Shown piece after piece: positions 25,709 to 32,596 of a stretch of DNA of 36,813 nt. The notes under the pieces are model-generated. The model was given only the letters and a program-made list of their open reading frames with translations. It did no database searches and was not told the origin of the DNA. A program made the translations under genes and the position numbers. The DNA comes from a virus. How positions within the stretch are numbered: the first letter of the stretch is position 1; each line of letters opens with the position of its first letter. The stretch covers positions 1 through 36,813 of IMG/VR virus record IMGVR_UViG_3300025000_000260. One strand, written 5' to 3'.

Positions 25709-26122
25709 ATGGCACAGCCCCTCCCCGTGCAAATCACCGAGATTCAGATCGCCCGATTCTCCGTCGACCCCGAGGCCATGCGCATGGTCATCGACTACAC
25801 CGAGGGGAATAGTACTTCGGGCACCTACACGCCTCTCCGAGAGGGCAGCAAGACTATCGAGGGGGCAGAGATGGCCGCCCTCTGCAACCATCCGATCTAC
25901 GACCAGTCCGGAGCCCAGCTCAACTTCTATGAGACGATCCGAAACCTCGTCTACGGCGTCATCATCCCGTCCCCTGCGCCTGTCATTCCTGCGCCGGTAC
26001 CGCCTGCCCCTGAGCCGGAAGCACCGCCCGCTCCCGAGCCCGAACCGGAGCCGGAAGTGCCCGTCGAGCCTCCCGTTGATCCGCCCGTCGAGCCTGAGCC
26101 CGATCCCGAGGTGACAGCATGA
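25709..26122 (+). CDS. Tail-associated protein with Pro/Glu repeat tail (137 aa)
   Basis: ATG at 25709 with GAAAGGACG upstream. The first 90 residues are mixed alpha/beta (VQITEIQIARFSVDPEAMRM) and may be a small fibre-associated domain. Residues 90-135 are almost only Pro, Glu, Ala and Val (PAPEPEAPPAPEPEPEPE), a stiff acidic linker. No family is named. Its stop overlaps the next start. Confidence 0.6.
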   Translation: MAQPLPVQITEIQIARFSVDPEAMRMVIDYTEGNSTSGTYTPLREGSKTIEGAEMAALCNHPIYDQSGAQLNFYETIRNLVYGVIIPSPAPVIPAPVPPAPEPEAPPAPEPEPEPEVPVEPPVDPPVEPEPDPEVTA

Positions 26123-26646
26123 GAAACACCATCCGAGCCTGGAACTGGTGCAAGACCAGATGGAGCCGCCTGAACGACTGGATTATGAGAGGGGAACCGA
26201 GAAAATCGGTTCCCCTTTTTGCATCTCCAGTGGAGGCCGCTGAATACCTCATGGCCAAGGCCCACTACGTTCCCGATCCCCTCGGCGGCGCACTCGATTG
26301 GTACGTGCATCCTGAGAGGCTACAAGCGGCGATGGAAGACTGCCGCATGGCCGTGGCGCGCATCCCTGGCGTTGACTGCGAGGACTGGGCGACCTGGGCC
26401 TACGTGGCGCTCCTTCGCATTCCCGGATGCAAGCCTCGCCTCCTCACCCTGGGCGATACCTCGGGGCGCTGGGGCCACCATGTGATCTGTGTTTACTCGC
26501 TGGCTGGGAAGTACGGGGCGATCGACGTGTCCGGCCACCGAGCGCTTGCCGATCTGGACGAGGCGAGAATTTGCGCCCTCTGGACCTCGCTCAACAACGA
26601 CGGCACCCGCTACACCGAGGCCGTGCCTACCGCTTACCCTTTTTGA
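26119..26646 (+). CDS. Transglutaminase-like cysteine peptidase
   Basis: The ATG at 26119 overlaps the preceding stop. A candidate catalytic triad is clear: C87 in GVDCEDWATWAY, H120/H121 in RWGHHVICVY, and D136 in YGAIDVSGH. This spacing is typical of transglutaminase/papain-fold peptidases. The first 30 residues are basic and Trp-rich and could touch membrane or wall. It may act on peptidoglycan cross-links or another host target; by place it belongs with the lysis genes. An intrinsic terminator-like hairpin lies inside its codons 25-34. A downstream ATG at 26250 is a poorer start. Confidence 0.65.
   Translation: MRNTIRAWNWCKTRWSRLNDWIMRGEPRKSVPLFASPVEAAEYLMAKAHYVPDPLGGALDWYVHPERLQAAMEDCRMAVARIPGVDCEDWATWAYVALLRIPGCKPRLLTLGDTSGRWGHHVICVYSLAGKYGAIDVSGHRALADLDEARICALWTSLNNDGTRYTEAVPTAYPF
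26191..26220 (+). terminator. Terminator-like hairpin inside the peptidase gene
   Basis: A perfect 10-bp stem GGGGAACCGA / TCGGTTCCCC with a GAAAA loop and TTTTT directly after. It would be a strong Rho-independent terminator, yet lies 72 bases into a coding region. It may attenuate lysis genes. Confidence 0.65.
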
Positions 26647-26660
26647 CAGGAAGGACCATC

Positions 26661-27131
26661 ATGAGCAATCTTTTCTCCTTGGCCGATGCCACGGGCCACT
26701 ACTGCGCCCGTCTGGTGGAAGCCGCACCCATCAAAATCGCTATCGCCCTGCTCGTCTCCTGGGCGGGATGGCTCTCGACCCCGGGCATCACGCAGGCGGC
26801 TATCTGGCTGCTCATCGCGGATTGGGTGACGGGGCTCATCAAGAGCGGCCTGCAACATCAAATCAATTCGGACTCCGGAGTGAGGGGCGCAATCAAATCT
26901 CTGATTTACCTCTCCCTCCTGGCCGTCGCCGGGGTGATCGCCTCGACCGGGGGAAGTGCCGCCGCGGTGGGCGAATGGATCGGCGTGGCGATCGTGCTGA
27001 CCGAGGCGGTATCGAACCTGGAGAACCTGGACGCGATCGCGTGTTTTTTCGGGGTGGAGGTGCCGGTGCTTAAGCGGGCTCTGGCGGTCCTGAGGATGAA
27101 GGCTGCGCTCGAGATGGAAAAGGAGGCCTGA
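26661..27131 (+). CDS. Holin
   Basis: ATG at 26661 follows AGGAAGGACCATC. The 156-aa protein has about four hydrophobic segments (near residues 22-38, 40-60, 79-95 and 100-117), with a TGLIKSGLQ turn and a charged, helical C-terminal end. The IADWVTGLIKSG and VRGAIKSLIYLSLLAVAG parts match the toxin-secretion/phage holin group (phage_holin_4). It would make the inner-membrane hole that lets the peptidase reach the wall. The endolysin begins at the next base. Confidence 0.85.
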   Translation: MSNLFSLADATGHYCARLVEAAPIKIAIALLVSWAGWLSTPGITQAAIWLLIADWVTGLIKSGLQHQINSDSGVRGAIKSLIYLSLLAVAGVIASTGGSAAAVGEWIGVAIVLTEAVSNLENLDAIACFFGVEVPVLKRALAVLRMKAALEMEKEA

Positions 27132-27521
27132 ATGCCGACCCAACTCACCCCGCATTTCACCCTGGAAGAACTCCTCTGTAAGTGCGGGAAATGTACCCCG
27201 CCCGCACCGGTCGTCGCCAACCTCAAGCGCCTGGCGCCCGTCCTCGAAAAGATCCGCATAGCCCTGGGCAAGCCCGTGATCGTCAATTCCGGCTACCGCT
27301 GTCCTCATCGGAACGCCGAGGCGGGAGGCGTAGCCGATAGCCAACACGTCAAGGGTACCGCCGCCGATCTCACCATCGCAGGCGTGAGCCCTGGCAGGAT
27401 AGCAGAGGAAGCAGGAAAAATCGCCCAGGTCGGAGGCATCGGCGTCTATCCTTATCAGGGGTTTTGTCACGTAGACATTCGGCCCCGAGTAGGAGGACAA
27501 ATCACCCGCTGGAACGGATAA
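27132..27521 (+). CDS. Endolysin, peptidase M15 family
   Basis: A 129-aa zinc peptidase of the M15A/VanY-like type that cuts peptide links in peptidoglycan. Zinc ligands are H72 and D79 in SQHVKGTAADL and H113 in FCHVDIR. The IVNSGYRCPHRN segment before them is also diagnostic, and a CKCGKC turn lies near the start. There is no signal peptide, so it needs the holin. It starts at the base after the holin stop and is followed by a terminator. No spanin gene is obvious. Confidence 0.92.
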   Translation: MPTQLTPHFTLEELLCKCGKCTPPAPVVANLKRLAPVLEKIRIALGKPVIVNSGYRCPHRNAEAGGVADSQHVKGTAADLTIAGVSPGRIAEEAGKIAQVGGIGVYPYQGFCHVDIRPRVGGQITRWNG

Positions 27522-27526
27522 CAAAA

Positions 27527-27559
27527 AGCCCCGGTCGAAATGATCGGGGCTCTCTTTTT
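27527..27559. terminator. Bidirectional terminator between endolysin and - strand operon
   Basis: The stem AGCCCCGGTC / GATCGGGGCT (one G-T pair) with a five-base loop is followed by CTCTTTTT on the + strand; on the - strand it is followed by TTTTTG. It separates converging transcripts. Confidence 0.85.
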
Positions 27560-27956
27560 ACACCTGGGGGTTCTCTTTGTCGAACTCAAACTCCTCACCG
27601 TATTTGTCGAAATGGGCGATGACGTATATCGCATAAAAATCCTGAGGAGATACGTCAGGGGAGGTTGCGTGGATGGCCTCGCGGATCTCGTCGTCCATGT
27701 GGGCAACAACAGCCTCCCAGTCGAAGGTATTCCCAAAAATTGTCTTGATTTCCATTTTTTCCTCTCTCTCCAGCGCATCCAGCGCCATCTCGATCAGTTC
27801 TCCGATGTTGCCGCATCCGTGGCGGGCCTTGGCCTGTTTCATTCTCTCGATGGTTTCCGGCCTCAGTTTGGCCTGGTAGGGGACCGTGGGGAGGGAAGGG
27901 CGACCAGCGCCCTCCCTTGCCCCGCCCGAGTTTGCCCGGGGACCGCCTCTAGGCAT
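27558..27956 (-). CDS. Putative DNA-binding protein (132 aa), second gene of a - strand operon
   Basis: ATG at 27956 overlaps the first gene's stop (TAATG). Residues 1-20 (MPRGGPRANSGGAREGAGRP) are an AT-hook-like basic Gly/Arg/Pro arm. Residues 25-65 (KLRPETIERMKQAKARHG, IGELIEMALDALEREE) look like a ribbon-helix-helix unit. The acidic C-terminal part (VVAHMDDEIREAIHATSPDVS, EFEFDKENPQV) resembles small acidic proteins of mobile elements. This is the profile of an autoregulator or antitoxin. Repeated operator-like sites stand at the operon promoter. Functions compatible with this are a toxin-antitoxin pair or an anti-CRISPR operon; neither is shown. Confidence 0.65.
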   Translation of the reverse strand: MPRGGPRANSGGAREGAGRPSLPTVPYQAKLRPETIERMKQAKARHGCGNIGELIEMALDALEREEKMEIKTIFGNTFDWEAVVAHMDDEIREAIHATSPDVSPQDFYAIYVIAHFDKYGEEFEFDKENPQV

Positions 27957-28129
27957 TAATACATACCGCAATTATCAGGGTTGAGGCGATCTTCTTCGAG
28001 GGCTTCCCGTCCGCGCTTGAGGAGCTTGAGGTAATACCTATTCAGAGCGTCTGCATTTTCGATATCAACTCCGGCCCGCCTTGCAAACTTTTTCAGGTCT
28101 TCCATGTCGTACTTGTTGAGATTCATCAT
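27956..28129 (-). CDS. Small protein (57-58 aa), first gene of a - strand operon
   Basis: Two adjacent ATGs (28129 and 28126) follow AAAGGGGAAACG. The product is all helical and charged: DMEDLKKFARRAGVDIENAD, LNRYYLKLLKRGREALEEDR, then a short tail with one Cys. It looks like a small helical protein rather than a fragment. It is not recognised. It is transcribed from the promoter at 28170-28197 and coupled by TAATG to the putative DNA-binding partner. Confidence 0.6.
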   Translation of the reverse strand: MMNLNKYDMEDLKKFARRAGVDIENADALNRYYLKLLKRGREALEEDRLNPDNCGMY

Positions 28130-28169
28130 TTTCGTTTCCCCTTTCGTGTTCTCTGCTCTCCACTCTTTT

Positions 28170-28216
28170 ATTATACACGGTATCAGCAAAAAGTAAACAG
28201 GTATTCAGCAAAAAAA
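28170..28216 (-). promoter_or_regulatory. Promoter with two operator-like direct repeats
   Basis: On the - strand, TTTACT (28192-28197) and a perfect TATAAT (28170-28175) are 16 bases apart, a good sigma-70-type promoter, 41 bases before the first gene. On the + strand, GGTATCAGCAAAAAG (28179-28193) and GGTATTCAGCAAAAAAA (28200-28216) are near-identical direct repeats; the first covers the spacer and the edge of the -35. This suits repression by a protein binding both copies. Confidence 0.7.
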
Positions 28217-28240
28217 CAGAAAGAATTTTTTGGAGGTTCT

Positions 28241-28888
28241 ATGACCCAGCGAATCCAGTCTTTCATCGCCTTTGTCCTGGCGGGCATCATCATCACGACA
28301 GGAATCGCCCTCTTCCGTTCCTGCCAGGTCCCCCGGATCGTCATCCCGGCCACCCCCTCGATCGCCATCGCGACTCCTGCCCCCTCCCCATCCCCCCAGT
28401 TGCAGGCGGCGAGCAAAACCACCTCGACGGCGGCCGGTACCGGGACGCAAAAAACCAAGGTCACCCTCTGGCTGCCATCACCTGAAAACGCCAAAAAGCC
28501 GACCTCGCAGGAGGCCCAGGAAGGGGTCTTGACTGCTGTGCCCGGTACGTCTGGACCTGCCGGAAACTGGGGGAAAATCGAGATCGAGCTTGAGCAGGAG
28601 ATTTCGACCGCGGCCACCTCGAGCGGGGAGGCTTCGGCGTCGATCGCGCCCAACTGTCTACAAAATGTAGAAAGTTCGATCGGCATCATCGCCGGAACCA
28701 TGCCGGGTATCATCGCCCTCGACTGGAGAGCGATCCACCTCGGACCTCTCGGCCTCGACCTGGCGGCAAATCATCGGAGTGTTTCGGCTGGCATCTCGGC
28801 AGGCGGGAAAATCTTCGGACTCGCTGGAGGCTATCAGGCTTTCGATGGCGGGCGGGGAATTTTCGCAGCGGGAGGGGTGAGGTTCTGA
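28241..28888 (+). CDS. Membrane-anchored protein (215 aa), possible lysis accessory
   Basis: ATG at 28241 with a strong TTTTTTGGAGGTTCT before it. Residues 7-27 (QSFIAFVLAGIIITTGIALF) are a single membrane helix, likely a signal anchor, followed by one Cys. Residues 30-75 are Pro/Ser/Ala/Thr-rich. The last 60 residues are Gly-rich and beta-like (SVSAGISAGGKIFGLAGGYQ). Position after the endolysin suggests a spanin-like or envelope role, but there is no clear coiled coil. No family named. Its stop codon sits in an inverted repeat. Confidence 0.6.
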   Translation: MTQRIQSFIAFVLAGIIITTGIALFRSCQVPRIVIPATPSIAIATPAPSPSPQLQAASKTTSTAAGTGTQKTKVTLWLPSPENAKKPTSQEAQEGVLTAVPGTSGPAGNWGKIEIELEQEISTAATSSGEASASIAPNCLQNVESSIGIIAGTMPGIIALDWRAIHLGPLGLDLAANHRSVSAGISAGGKIFGLAGGYQAFDGGRGIFAAGGVRF

Positions 28889-28922
28889 TTAGAAACCAAT
28901 CCGCATTTTTTAGTTTCTAATC
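28887..28922. repeat. Inverted repeat with 10-bp arms
   Basis: GATTAGAAAC (28887-28896) and GTTTCTAATC (28913-28922) are perfect arms around a 16-base loop containing six T. They cover the stop codon of the upstream gene. It could be a weak terminator or a protein site. Confidence 0.55.
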
Positions 28923-28928
28923 GCACAT

Positions 28929-28956
28929 GGGGAGGCTTCGGCTTCCCCTTTTTTTT
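28929..28956 (+). terminator. Rho-independent terminator, UUCG tetraloop
   Basis: GGGGAGGC-TTCG-GCTTCCCC has an 8-bp stem with one G-T pair and a C(UUCG)G loop, followed by eight T. It ends the lysis transcript. Confidence 0.85.
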
Positions 28957-28965
28957 ATCTGCAGC

Positions 28966-28997
28966 AAAAAGCCCGAGATGCTAGTAACATCGCGGGC
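28966..28997 (-). terminator. Terminator for the repressor-integrase transcript
   Basis: On the - strand a stem with arms at 28988-28997 and 28971-28980 (nine pairs, one mismatch) and a seven-base loop is followed by TTTTTG. It lies about 150 bases past the integrase stop. The stretch 28998-29122 holds no gene. Confidence 0.6.
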
Positions 28998-29122
28998 CTA
29001 CCGGTAAGGATTCCGTTTACCACGTCAGTAATGAGGCTCCCTTGACTGCCATCATACCACGGCCCCTTCTTTTTTTGTGGCGAGGATCGAGGGGCTGATA
29101 GGGGAGTAGGGGGCATGGTATG

Positions 29123-29174
29123 AGTGGGGCCTTTGCGGAGGTGCGGCCTACTGCGGATCTACAAAGGCCCCACT
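29123..29174. other. Candidate attP: 52-bp dyad at the integrase 3' end
   Basis: Perfect 13-bp arms AGTGGGGCCTTTG (29123-29135) and CAAAGGCCCCACT (29162-29174) surround a 26-base centre that is only partly symmetric. The centre falls on the integrase stop codon. Length near 50 bp, outer inverted arms and a place next to the recombinase gene are those of serine-integrase attP sites. There is no T-run on either side, so it is not a good terminator. Confidence 0.45.
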
Positions 29175-30650
29175 TCTGATCCCGTTATAGCGCCGCATGT
29201 TCTCGCGGGGGACCGAGATGAACTCGCGTTCGTCTGACAGGGGAAACCTCGGATAGATCTTAAACTCTCCCACCGTCACAATGCAACGCTCGACCAGCAG
29301 GCGCAAGAGATCGCCACGCTTCTGCTCGTCCAGGTCAACCCACATCCCCATGAGGTCTTCGGATATCTGGAGATGTTTTGGCGCAAAGGGCTCGACAACC
29401 TTCATCCCTGAAAGCTCTCCGTCGATTCGTTTGATGTTCGCAGACATTTCCTTGATGTCCGTCACGCCGGATCGGAAAAGATCCTTCTCTCGCTCTCTCC
29501 TGGACTGGAGATCTTTTATCCGCCTCTCCCTGGCCTTGTCGTCTTTCGGCTTTGCCTTGCGAGGAGTCGACGCGGCATGCTTGATGGCTTCTCGAATCTC
29601 TAGCCCGATGGACGGCACCACCCGAAGCTCCAGAAACAGCCTCCCGATGCTTGGGCGAAGCTCGCAAGACGATTTTCCTTTATCGCTCATGCTTGAGCAA
29701 CGATAGTCGTATTGGGAATGTCGACGAAGAACGCTCCCGCACTCGCAATAAATCAACCCTGACCAGGCGTATTTCTTGCCAAAAATAGCGCGAGGGGAAC
29801 TTGCCGCGTTCTCATCCAATAGGCCTTGAGCGCGATCCCAGTCATCTTGAGAGACGATCGGCATGTGGGTGTTTTCGCACACGATCCAGGTTGACGGGTC
29901 TTGCCACTTCTTGCGCCTGCTCCCGGTGGACGTGCGGACATACTTGCTTCGCTGCCACACCGTCTTGCCGAGGTAGATCGGGTTTCGGAGGATGCCGCGC
30001 ACGGAGGTATAAGAGAACAGGCTTCCTGTTTTCGAGCGATACCCCAGGGCGTTCAAACGATCGGCGGTGCCTCGCAGGGTTCGATCCTGCAGGAAGGATC
30101 GGAACACCTCGCGGACGATCTCTGCATCTCCTTCCACCGTGACGAATTTTCCATCATCGACCGCATACCCCAGGGGAATCGCTCCCCAGTTTCGACGGCC
30201 ACCGGCTGCTATGTGGGCCATGGATGACTTGACCCGCTCTGCCGTGTTATCGCTCTCAACCTGAGCCCAGACCGCCAGCATGCCCACCATGGCAACGCCG
30301 TAATGCGTGGAAGTGTCGAAGTCCTGAGTGAGCGAAATGAAGGCTATGTCGTTGTCCTGGAGGACGCCCAGCACCTCATGAGTTTTTCTCATCGAGCGAG
30401 CCAGACGATCGAGCTTGTAAACGATCACGGCATCGAAGGCCCGCTTGCTCGCGGCGTCCATCATTCGCTTGAGCTCTGGCCGCTTGTCGTTCTTGCCGCT
30501 CATCACATCGACGTATTTACCCGCGAAGTGCCAGCCCTTTGCCTCACAGCGGGCTTGGGCCATTTCGAGTTGCGAATCCAGGGAGACACCTTCTTGCGCC
30601 TGCTGGGTCGTGGAGACGCGGGCGTATAAGACGGCGCGAGTTATAGCCAT
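29148..30650 (-). CDS. int: Large serine integrase
   Basis: A 500-aa serine recombinase. Residues 1-140 are the catalytic domain: nucleophile S13 in YARVST, then YKLDRLARSMR and the AQVESDNTAERVK stretch. Residues about 160-290 are the recombinase domain (GAIPLGYAVDD, VRGILRNPIYLGK). A zinc ribbon lies near 310-340 (CECGS, RCSS, CELR), followed by a long coiled coil (370-420). It inserts the phage genome at attB and leaves attL/attR. The ATG follows GAGGATTAA, and the gene directly follows the repressor stop, so both are in one transcript. The length is normal. Confidence 0.95.
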   Translation of the reverse strand: MAITRAVLYARVSTTQQAQEGVSLDSQLEMAQARCEAKGWHFAGKYVDVMSGKNDKRPELKRMMDAASKRAFDAVIVYKLDRLARSMRKTHEVLGVLQDNDIAFISLTQDFDTSTHYGVAMVGMLAVWAQVESDNTAERVKSSMAHIAAGGRRNWGAIPLGYAVDDGKFVTVEGDAEIVREVFRSFLQDRTLRGTADRLNALGYRSKTGSLFSYTSVRGILRNPIYLGKTVWQRSKYVRTSTGSRRKKWQDPSTWIVCENTHMPIVSQDDWDRAQGLLDENAASSPRAIFGKKYAWSGLIYCECGSVLRRHSQYDYRCSSMSDKGKSSCELRPSIGRLFLELRVVPSIGLEIREAIKHAASTPRKAKPKDDKARERRIKDLQSRREREKDLFRSGVTDIKEMSANIKRIDGELSGMKVVEPFAPKHLQISEDLMGMWVDLDEQKRGDLLRLLVERCIVTVGEFKIYPRFPLSDEREFISVPRENMRRYNGIRSGAFVDPQ

Positions 30651-31487
30651 TTAATCCTCAACGGTATGCCGGAGAACCTGCGCGACAATGGTCATCTCTG
30701 GAGTGATGTGGATTATCTTCGACTCCCCTTCGCCTGGAAGAGATTTCAGATAAGGACCCCACTTCGGATCCTCGCAATATTCTTTGCACATGCACCCGTC
30801 GCCCTTGATGTTTACGATCACCTTTTTGCCTGGTTGGGGCTGCTCGCCGTTCAGACGCTTGATAAAAAGAATAGCACCTTCAGTGAACCCCGCCGCCAAC
30901 ATGCTTGTTCCTGTAGCGATCAGAGTTCCGTCAGCCCCTTTGGCCTCTCGTTCATTCCAGTATTCGATACCTTGCGGCTCGTCCGGTATTACGCAAGGCT
31001 CTCCGCAGTTTATGTATCCATACATCGGCAATCCCACGAACTTTCCAAGCGGGGCAAGTGTCCCCGCAGGCGCGAGAAGGGCTGCTTGCTTTTCCCACAC
31101 CGATTCTACGTGAGATTGATCACTACTTCCACATATTTCATGTTTATTTGTAACTGTTTCAGGATTAACCAATTCATGAACGGAAGTTAAGGCGGGCTTT
31201 ATGGGGGCAAGTGGAGCCTGAGATCCAATAACTGAAATGGCTTTAGGTGTTGGCTCTGGACCGTTTCCGCGAACAAAGCGGCCTAGCTCCTCTTCGTCTA
31301 CCTGAAGTCCCTTAGATAGCTTCTGAATAGTGTCGGGGGCAGGCGACTTCGTTACTCGCCCAGCCATTATGTTCCCCAGGGAGCCAGGGTCCATCCCTGA
31401 TCGCCGAGCAAGCTCCCTCCTGGATATGCCCAACTCGGTACACCTCTTGACAATGTATTCAATTAAAGCGCCGATTGATGAATTCAT
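30651..31487 (-). CDS. CI/LexA-type repressor with S24 peptidase domain
   Basis: ATG at 31487 (278 aa) has AAAGGGG upstream; a longer frame starts at 31505. Residues 5-65 are an XRE helix-turn-helix (SRRELARRSGMDPGSLGNIM). The C-terminal part is a LexA/CI-type self-cleaving domain: cleavage site C161-G162 in YINCGEP, Ser195 in GTSMLAAG and Lys235 in MCKEY, 40 residues apart as in known members. DNA damage should trigger self-cleavage and induction. A long linker (75-145) separates the domains. It keeps the lytic genes off and is transcribed together with integrase. Confidence 0.92.
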   Translation of the reverse strand: MNSSIGALIEYIVKRCTELGISRRELARRSGMDPGSLGNIMAGRVTKSPAPDTIQKLSKGLQVDEEELGRFVRGNGPEPTPKAISVIGSQAPLAPIKPALTSVHELVNPETVTNKHEICGSSDQSHVESVWEKQAALLAPAGTLAPLGKFVGLPMYGYINCGEPCVIPDEPQGIEYWNEREAKGADGTLIATGTSMLAAGFTEGAILFIKRLNGEQPQPGKKVIVNIKGDGCMCKEYCEDPKWGPYLKSLPGEGESKIIHITPEMTIVAQVLRHTVED

Positions 31488-31501
31488 AAAACCCCTTTGA
31501 T

Positions 31502-31583
31502 GCAAAATTACAATAAACCCTGTTGTAAAAATACGCTCGCAGGGTATTGTATATTTACGACGATGGTGTTATTGTATTTCTAC
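31502..31583. promoter_or_regulatory. Operator array of the lysogeny switch
   Basis: Between the divergent repressor and Cro-like genes are three sites of the form GTA-N4-TAC: GTAAAAATAC (31525), GTATATTTAC (31549) and GTATTTCTAC (31574). A weaker one, GCAAAATTAC, lies at 31502. Steps are 23, 24 and 25 bases. Each is preceded by T or T-rich DNA (TTGTA). A possible rightward promoter is TTGTAA (31523) with TATTGT (31545); the leftward promoter is not clear. Confidence 0.72.
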
Positions 31584-31602
31584 ACCAAGGAGGTGATGAG
31601 AA

Positions 31603-31833
31603 ATGAAACGATTTTTACCAGAACGACTTCAATCTATTAGAAACGAAAGAGGATTATCAGTTCCACAGCTGGCTACCGCATCAGGGCAGAAGGCGCACAA
31701 CATTTCTAACGCAGAGGCAGGAAGAGTAAAGCGCCCAGGATACCAGTTTATTACCGATATCTCGTCTGCCCTTGGCGTGAGTGACGACTATTTTTTTACC
31801 ACAAGTGATGTATCTATACAACAATCAGCCTGA
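31603..31833 (+). CDS. Cro-like XRE regulator (76 aa)
   Basis: ATG at 31603 follows the strong AAGGAGGTGATGAGAA. The protein is a single helix-turn-helix domain: ERLQSIRNERGLSVPQLATA, then a recognition helix near KAHNISNAEAG and ITDISSALGVSDDYFF. It faces the repressor gene across the operators, the place of Cro. It would repress the repressor promoter during lytic growth. Confidence 0.88.
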   Translation: MKRFLPERLQSIRNERGLSVPQLATASGQKAHNISNAEAGRVKRPGYQFITDISSALGVSDDYFFTTSDVSIQQSA

Positions 31834-31846
31834 AGAAAGGAATCCT

Positions 31847-32596
31847 ATGAACAACCAGACCGAACTTCCCATCCTCAAGACCACAGAAATGATCACGGTC
31901 CGCGAAGTATCAGGAAGGCAAGCTTTCACCTACCAGGACATGGCCGACGCGCTCCAGGTCGATCCCGCTCTCATTCGGAAGCAGTACTCCCGAAACGCCG
32001 ACTCCTGGATCCAAGGCGAAACCGACGTGTGTCTTTTTGACACAGGGGCAGGCGATCGGGAAATCCGCTACTTCACCACTCGCGGTGCCATGCGTTTCTG
32101 TCGCTACGTCAAATCTGGCCGCTCCGATCAACTCTTCAATCACCTCCTCGACCTCTGGGAGGAAGAGCGCAACGAAACCTCCATCGCCCCTCGCAATACC
32201 ATCGCCGAATTGGATGCCGCCCTCAACGCCATCACCTACAAGATCGCCCCCAAGGTTGTCGAGATGGACACCCGACTTTCCCAGGTCGAAGAGCATTGCA
32301 AGCAGACGAACCCCCTGGAAATCGAGCGCCGGATGCACTTCCTGAAGAACACATCCAAGGTCCTGGTTGCTGGAACCAAGGGGAAACCCCAGCCGGTCAC
32401 CTATCAAAAATTCTGGATCGAGCTCAAGAACTTGATCGGGATCAACTCCTTCACCAACCGCGCCGCCTTGACCGTCGAGATGATGGAGAAGTGCGTTGAG
32501 TACGCCAAGTCCTGGTGCGACACGCGGTGCCTGATTCAGCCCTCTCTATTCGGAAGAGAGTCCGGAAAAACGAACGTCATCCAGTTCGGAGCCTAG
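31847..32596 (+). CDS. Phage antirepressor-like protein (ORF6C type)
   Basis: ATG at 31847 follows GAAAGGAATCCT. The 249-aa protein has an N-terminal BRO-like domain (about 15-105: FTYQDMADALQVDPALIRKQYSR, REIRYFTTRGAMRFCRYVKSG) and an ORF6C-like C-terminal domain (about 170-240: TYQKFWIELKNLIGINSFTNRAAL). A coiled-coil linker lies between. Such proteins bind the CI-type repressor or DNA and help induction. It is the second gene of the rightward operon after the Cro-like gene. Confidence 0.78.
   Translation: MNNQTELPILKTTEMITVREVSGRQAFTYQDMADALQVDPALIRKQYSRNADSWIQGETDVCLFDTGAGDREIRYFTTRGAMRFCRYVKSGRSDQLFNHLLDLWEEERNETSIAPRNTIAELDAALNAITYKIAPKVVEMDTRLSQVEEHCKQTNPLEIERRMHFLKNTSKVLVAGTKGKPQPVTYQKFWIELKNLIGINSFTNRAALTVEMMEKCVEYAKSWCDTRCLIQPSLFGRESGKTNVIQFGA

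Follow-up and report, generated by a model that had tools for sequence, protein, structure and literature searches.

The 52-bp dyad over the 3′ end of the gene for a large serine integrase in this virus is very probably the attP site of that integrase, a prediction that rests on its geometry, on the recovery of known attP centres in control phages and on a survey of related loci, and that upholds the function given to it in an earlier sequence-only reading. The dyad was analysed in a window of 36,813 nt, the whole stretch of IMG/VR record IMGVR_UViG_3300025000_000260. The 3′ end of an integrase gene is the usual place, and a dyad the usual shape, for attachment sites of such enzymes. The site would add a further case to a known kind of attP, and recombination at it is itself a prediction. 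The main elements are:

29123–29174, no strand assigned: predicted attP core of 52 bp, two 26-bp half-sites flanking a central dinucleotide (arm scan, shuffles)
29123–29135, plus strand: distal arm AGTGGGGCCTTTG, positions 14–26 from the centre, likened to the contact region of the RD-ZD linker and zinc ribbon in LI integrase
29162–29174, plus strand: integrase-side arm CAAAGGCCCCACT, positions 14–26 from the centre, within the integrase reading frame
29148–30650, minus strand: large serine integrase of 500 aa with resolvase catalytic domain, recombinase domain, zinc ribbon and coiled coil (Pfam, PHROG, alignment, AlphaFold, Foldseek)

The arm scan confirmed the 13-base perfect arms at the ends of the dyad that had been read from the sequence. 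AGTGGGGCCTTTG and CAAAGGCCCCACT are fully complementary over 13 nt, are separated by a 26-nt spacer, and form the only perfect arm pair of at least 13 nt with a span of up to 120 in the whole window. A functionless pair of this kind could arise by chance, and a comparable one was indeed found somewhere in some shuffled windows, at a frequency that depends on the span allowed: 2 of 20 had a perfect pair of at least 13 nt within a span of 120, and 1 of 100 had a 13-nt arm pair with a spacer of 3–60. At the observed position and spacing a chance origin is very improbable. Local shuffles, restricted to the 400 bp around the integrase stop, gave a 13-nt arm pair in only 1 of 2000 cases, and the expectation from base composition is 1.5e-4 for a 13-nt dyad centred within 80 bp of the stop with a spacer of 0–60, and about 1.6e-5 for one at the stop with a spacer of 24–28. 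When the exact arms with their spacing were sought in other viral contigs, there were no matches.

The position of the arms can be compared with the structure of LI/A118 integrase on attP (Rutherford et al., 2013; PMC3783163). According to excerpts of that paper, the half-site is 25 bp long, the zinc ribbon touches positions 16–24 (a 9-bp ZD motif) and the RD-ZD linker lies at positions ∼13–15. Its position 0 is a base of the central dinucleotide, so that its 13–24 corresponds to about 14–25 counted from the centre. The arms in the window, at 14–26, match these linker and zinc-ribbon contact positions, and the dyad as a whole, with its 52 bp, has the form of an imperfect dyad of ∼40–60 bp with its outer arms at linker and zinc-ribbon positions. 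In the inner half-site (positions 1–13) 5 of 13 positions are symmetric, and thus the dyad symmetry rests on the outer arms. This is in keeping with the loose base recognition by the recombinase domain that the same excerpts describe (PMC3783163). The attP-geometry score of the dyad, 14.5, is the maximum in the window, where the runner-up reaches 12.5.

The integrase encoded beside the dyad is full-length and intact. Pfam detects the Resolvase (E=2.3e-37) and Recombinase (E=1.7e-26) domains, both over the cut-off; the zinc ribbon (E=1.5e-4) falls under it, with 22.5 against 25.3 bits, and has its four Cys present. The protein also matches the integrase family phrog_95 (E=2.8e-112). In an alignment of 45 integrases Arg11, Ser13, Asp81, Arg82 and Arg85, which we take to be catalytic, are invariant, as are Cys302, Cys304 and Cys318, while Cys329 is almost invariant; these four we take to be the zinc-ligand positions. 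As a separate observation, the first Cys pair of the zinc ribbon (residues 302–304, ∼29740–29760, minus strand) is spaced as CxC, in contrast to CxxC in the aligned phage relatives. The AlphaFold model (mean pLDDT 86, pTM 0.55) has all domains, with a long antiparallel helix pair at the place expected for the coiled coil; pLDDT is below 50 solely at residues 493–500 and in a short loop, 286–291. Foldseek matched the model to the SPbeta, Bxb1, phiC31 and Listeria LI (4kis) integrases. The nearest integrases share about 24–32% identity across most of their length. No close relative of the integrase was found in viral_contigs, the search of genome_contigs gave two Bacilli MAG loci with 24–25% identity, and the plasmid search gave distant recombinases only. 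In viral_contigs and genome_contigs, neither of which held a close relative, no lysogen or attL/attR junction was found.

The centre of the dyad lies between 29148 and 29149, within the TAG stop codon of the integrase (29150–29148, minus strand), and so the dyad does lie over the stop codon as had been claimed. On the integrase strand the sequence reads CGCAGTA up to the centre and GGCCGC after it. Two further features are defined by this overlap:

29148–29216, minus strand: last 22 codons and stop of the integrase, a C-terminal extension whose final codons lie in the attP half-site (alignment, AlphaFold)
29148–29149, minus strand: predicted crossover dinucleotide AG, non-palindromic, coinciding with the AG of the integrase TAG stop (position taken from the symmetry)

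The integrase extends 22 residues beyond the last common column of the 45-sequence alignment. Among its 44 relatives, 40 have no residues past that column, three have 1 and one has 11. The extension runs through the intergenic stretch into the predicted attP and ends at the dyad centre. The central dinucleotide on the minus strand, AG, is non-palindromic, and we predict that it serves as the real crossover. For serine integrases the central dinucleotide of attP has to be identical to that of attB. In A118 this need has been shown by mutation, as stated in PMC3556126. With the T coming from the phage side and AG common to attP and attB, the TAG stop would be rebuilt on integration and the integrase protein would remain unchanged. 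This speaks against the earlier suggestion that the last codons of the integrase might be altered by integration. Editing of the integrase C terminus by integration was also considered for the neighbouring registers: TAG would be kept with a crossover at the symmetric centre (AG), and also if it lies one base downstream (GG on the integrase strand). A crossover one base upstream would use the palindromic TA and is unlikely, because the orientation of integration would be lost.

Known attP sites provide both likenesses and differences. The attP of Listeria phage A118 is also an imperfect dyad, of ∼50 bp, just 3′ of int, with its outer arms at the zinc-ribbon contact positions and a non-palindromic central dinucleotide. 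Used as a control, the A118 locus (4.3 kb) gave a top dyad with its centre at GG, +45 bp relative to the int stop; GG is the crossover that was mapped experimentally according to PMC3556126. In the window the centre is at −1 instead; the sequences of the two sites are unrelated, the inner half-site of A118 is more symmetric, and the integrases are 24% identical. In Enterococcus phage phiFC1 (AF124258) attP overlaps the int 3′ end as it does in the window. The annotated core is at 1445–1447 and the int stop at 1426, with the int-side half-site covering the stop codon, and our scan placed a dyad at +20, within the annotated core; by number of outer matches, another dyad, at −48, ranks above the true attP. 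In phiFC1 the stop codon is in the outer half-site, whereas in the window it is at the predicted crossover, and the integrases are 28% identical. For the attP of Streptomyces phage SV1, according to PMC4068962, a perfect inverted repeat led to the prediction, which sequencing then confirmed. The SV1 site resembles the dyad described here in its perfect arms, its long spacer and its place near int; unlike it, the SV1 site has 10-bp arms, a 22-bp spacer and a total length of 42 bp, and lies within a 342-bp non-coding region downstream of int (PMC4068962).

Among the other control phages, PK5.2 (+31) and Mimir87 (+20) had top-ranked dyads near the int stop, and NIIg3.2 had a weaker dyad at +31. 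A convincing dyad near the int stop was not found in BL3, D6E, BUCT702, Bo-Finn or Janus. A403 had only a weak dyad at +30, and its record places the attachment site elsewhere, upstream of int.

The survey covered 92 loci, made up of 80 integrase loci from viral contigs, 11 phages and the window, with score weights that were set after the window and the 11 phages had been seen. Centres scoring at least 12.5 were found at 23 of 6443 positions between −25 and +74 bp of int stops, the window itself being one of the 23, and at 32 of 373626 positions elsewhere, a density ratio of 41.7. The 92 loci include the same phage twice (L005/L038), one pair with identical dyads (L054/L056) and one with near-identical dyads (L026/L028), and L012 was outside the scan as its int is not annotated. 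In a block test the best dyad at −30 to +80 beat every other 111-bp block in 21 of 62 loci, where 1.4 were expected, and 41 of the 62 failed; the 30 loci left out had less than 110 bp past the int stop, many of these contigs ending exactly there. Sixteen of the 21 passes came from the 50 viral-contig loci that were unseen when the score was chosen. The dyad in the window thus adjoins int as in its relatives, but its centre at −1 differs from those of the other high-scoring near-stop dyads, at +20 to +64. It is the only one of the attP-like dyads surveyed with the stop codon at its centre, and from titles and abstracts we could identify no published case of an int stop at the centre of attP.

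On the far side of the predicted attP from int there are two further inverted repeats:

28966–28997, minus strand: probable intrinsic terminator of int, stem 9/10 paired, loop 7, then TTTTT (RNA fold, sequence)
29052–29123, no strand assigned: second dyad abutting attP, 19-nt arms, 16/19 complementary, 34-nt spacer

These bear on the possibility that the attP-like dyad instead forms a 3′-terminal hairpin of the int mRNA, acting as a terminator, stability element or retroregulator, with attP located elsewhere. In minus-strand RNA the arms would make a long stem that is directly followed by a second hairpin, and the 251-nt region folds better than shuffled sequences (z −2.7). However, in agreement with what had been read from the sequence, no T-run follows either arm on either strand, and the terminator scan listed nothing at the dyad. 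Instead of the GC-rich stem, short loop and T-run of an intrinsic terminator, the dyad has a 26-nt loop and no T-run; such a spacer is long for a terminator and right for attP. In addition, int has the separate terminator-like hairpin at 28997–28966, which the stricter terminator scan leaves out since it does not allow stem mismatches, and the same dyad geometry is enriched at the 3′ ends of related int genes, including two known attP sites. We therefore regard a hairpin function in place of attP as quite improbable.

The second dyad has its arms at 29052–29070 and 29105–29123, base 29123 being common to it and the attP dyad. The window has no other such pair; a pair of this kind occurred in 6 of 40 shuffled windows and in none of 1000 local shuffles. 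One arm carries TACCACGGCCCC, which is like TACAAAGGCCCC in the attP arm at 10 of 12 positions. The second dyad might form a hairpin in mRNA or act as an accessory binding site. Among 20 other loci compared, L082 alone had an abutting dyad comparable or superior to this one in strength and span, and several had weaker arm pairs nearby. The strong dyad of L082 lies at +24 to +109 from its attP-like centre and has self-palindromic arms, TACGCTTTTAAGCGTA.

A regulator gene lies on the other side of int:

30651–31505, minus strand: HTH/LexA-like phage repressor, upstream of int (Pfam, PHROG)

Perfect dyads are typical of operators and this repressor gene adjoins int, so that the dyad might serve as an operator for the repressor or another regulator. 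We judge this to be hardly probable, as the dyad is at the int 3′ end, roughly 2.3 kb away from where the repressor gene starts, the sole promoter-like match in 28700–31900 is at 31393–31366, and no second copy of an arm with up to two mismatches was found in the window outside the dyad.

Across the dyad from int is the lysis module, with a holin and an M15 peptidase. The location of the predicted attP between the lysis module and the int-repressor module suggests that the contig represents the non-integrated form. An ORF between the lysis module and int (27558–27971, minus strand) has no PHROG match, and its C-terminal ∼50 aa match the Pfam anti-CRISPR family AcrIC5 (E=7.7e-15). No relatives of the repressor or of ORF 28241–28888 were found in viral_contigs, and 26000–31600 showed no DNA similarity to 50,697 phage records. 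The capsid has relatives in 80 viral loci, with 44–56% identity.

From the dyad, the full-length integrase, the half-site geometry and the like arrangement in relatives, all of which were computed, we infer binding, cleavage position, recombination and the fate of the stop codon as follows. One integrase dimer would bind both half-sites of attP, with the recombinase domains near the centre and the zinc ribbons on the outer arms at positions of about 17–25. A second dimer would sit on the host attB, and the two would together make a 2-bp staggered cut at 29148–29149 (AG, integrase strand); strand exchange would integrate the circular phage genome. The integrase gene would then end at one prophage border, with TAG rebuilt as attB must share AG. 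Since the terminator at 28966–28997 lies across the predicted attP, integration would separate it from int and carry it, with the lysis genes, to the other prophage end.

A further idea is that the sharing of one codon between int and attP has been selected, which we consider unlikely. The frame would have been lengthened by 22 codons beyond its usual end, through the half-site, as far as a TAG in which AG is also the crossover, ensuring that the stop is rebuilt with any host flank. In the free phage the attP hairpin, then the second hairpin, then the terminator would close the int mRNA; integration would remove all three, so that int expression in the prophage would differ while the protein stays the same.

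Taken together, the window contains a probable attP for an integrase that is at most about one third identical to anything found, and with knowledge of attB the pair could be a candidate new tool for orthogonal integration. The survey suggests that attP in uncultured phages might be predicted simply, by scoring dyads for zinc-ribbon geometry within ∼75 bp of the integrase stop. A stop codon at the crossover would illustrate how the constraints of coding and of recombination can meet while the protein stays unchanged.
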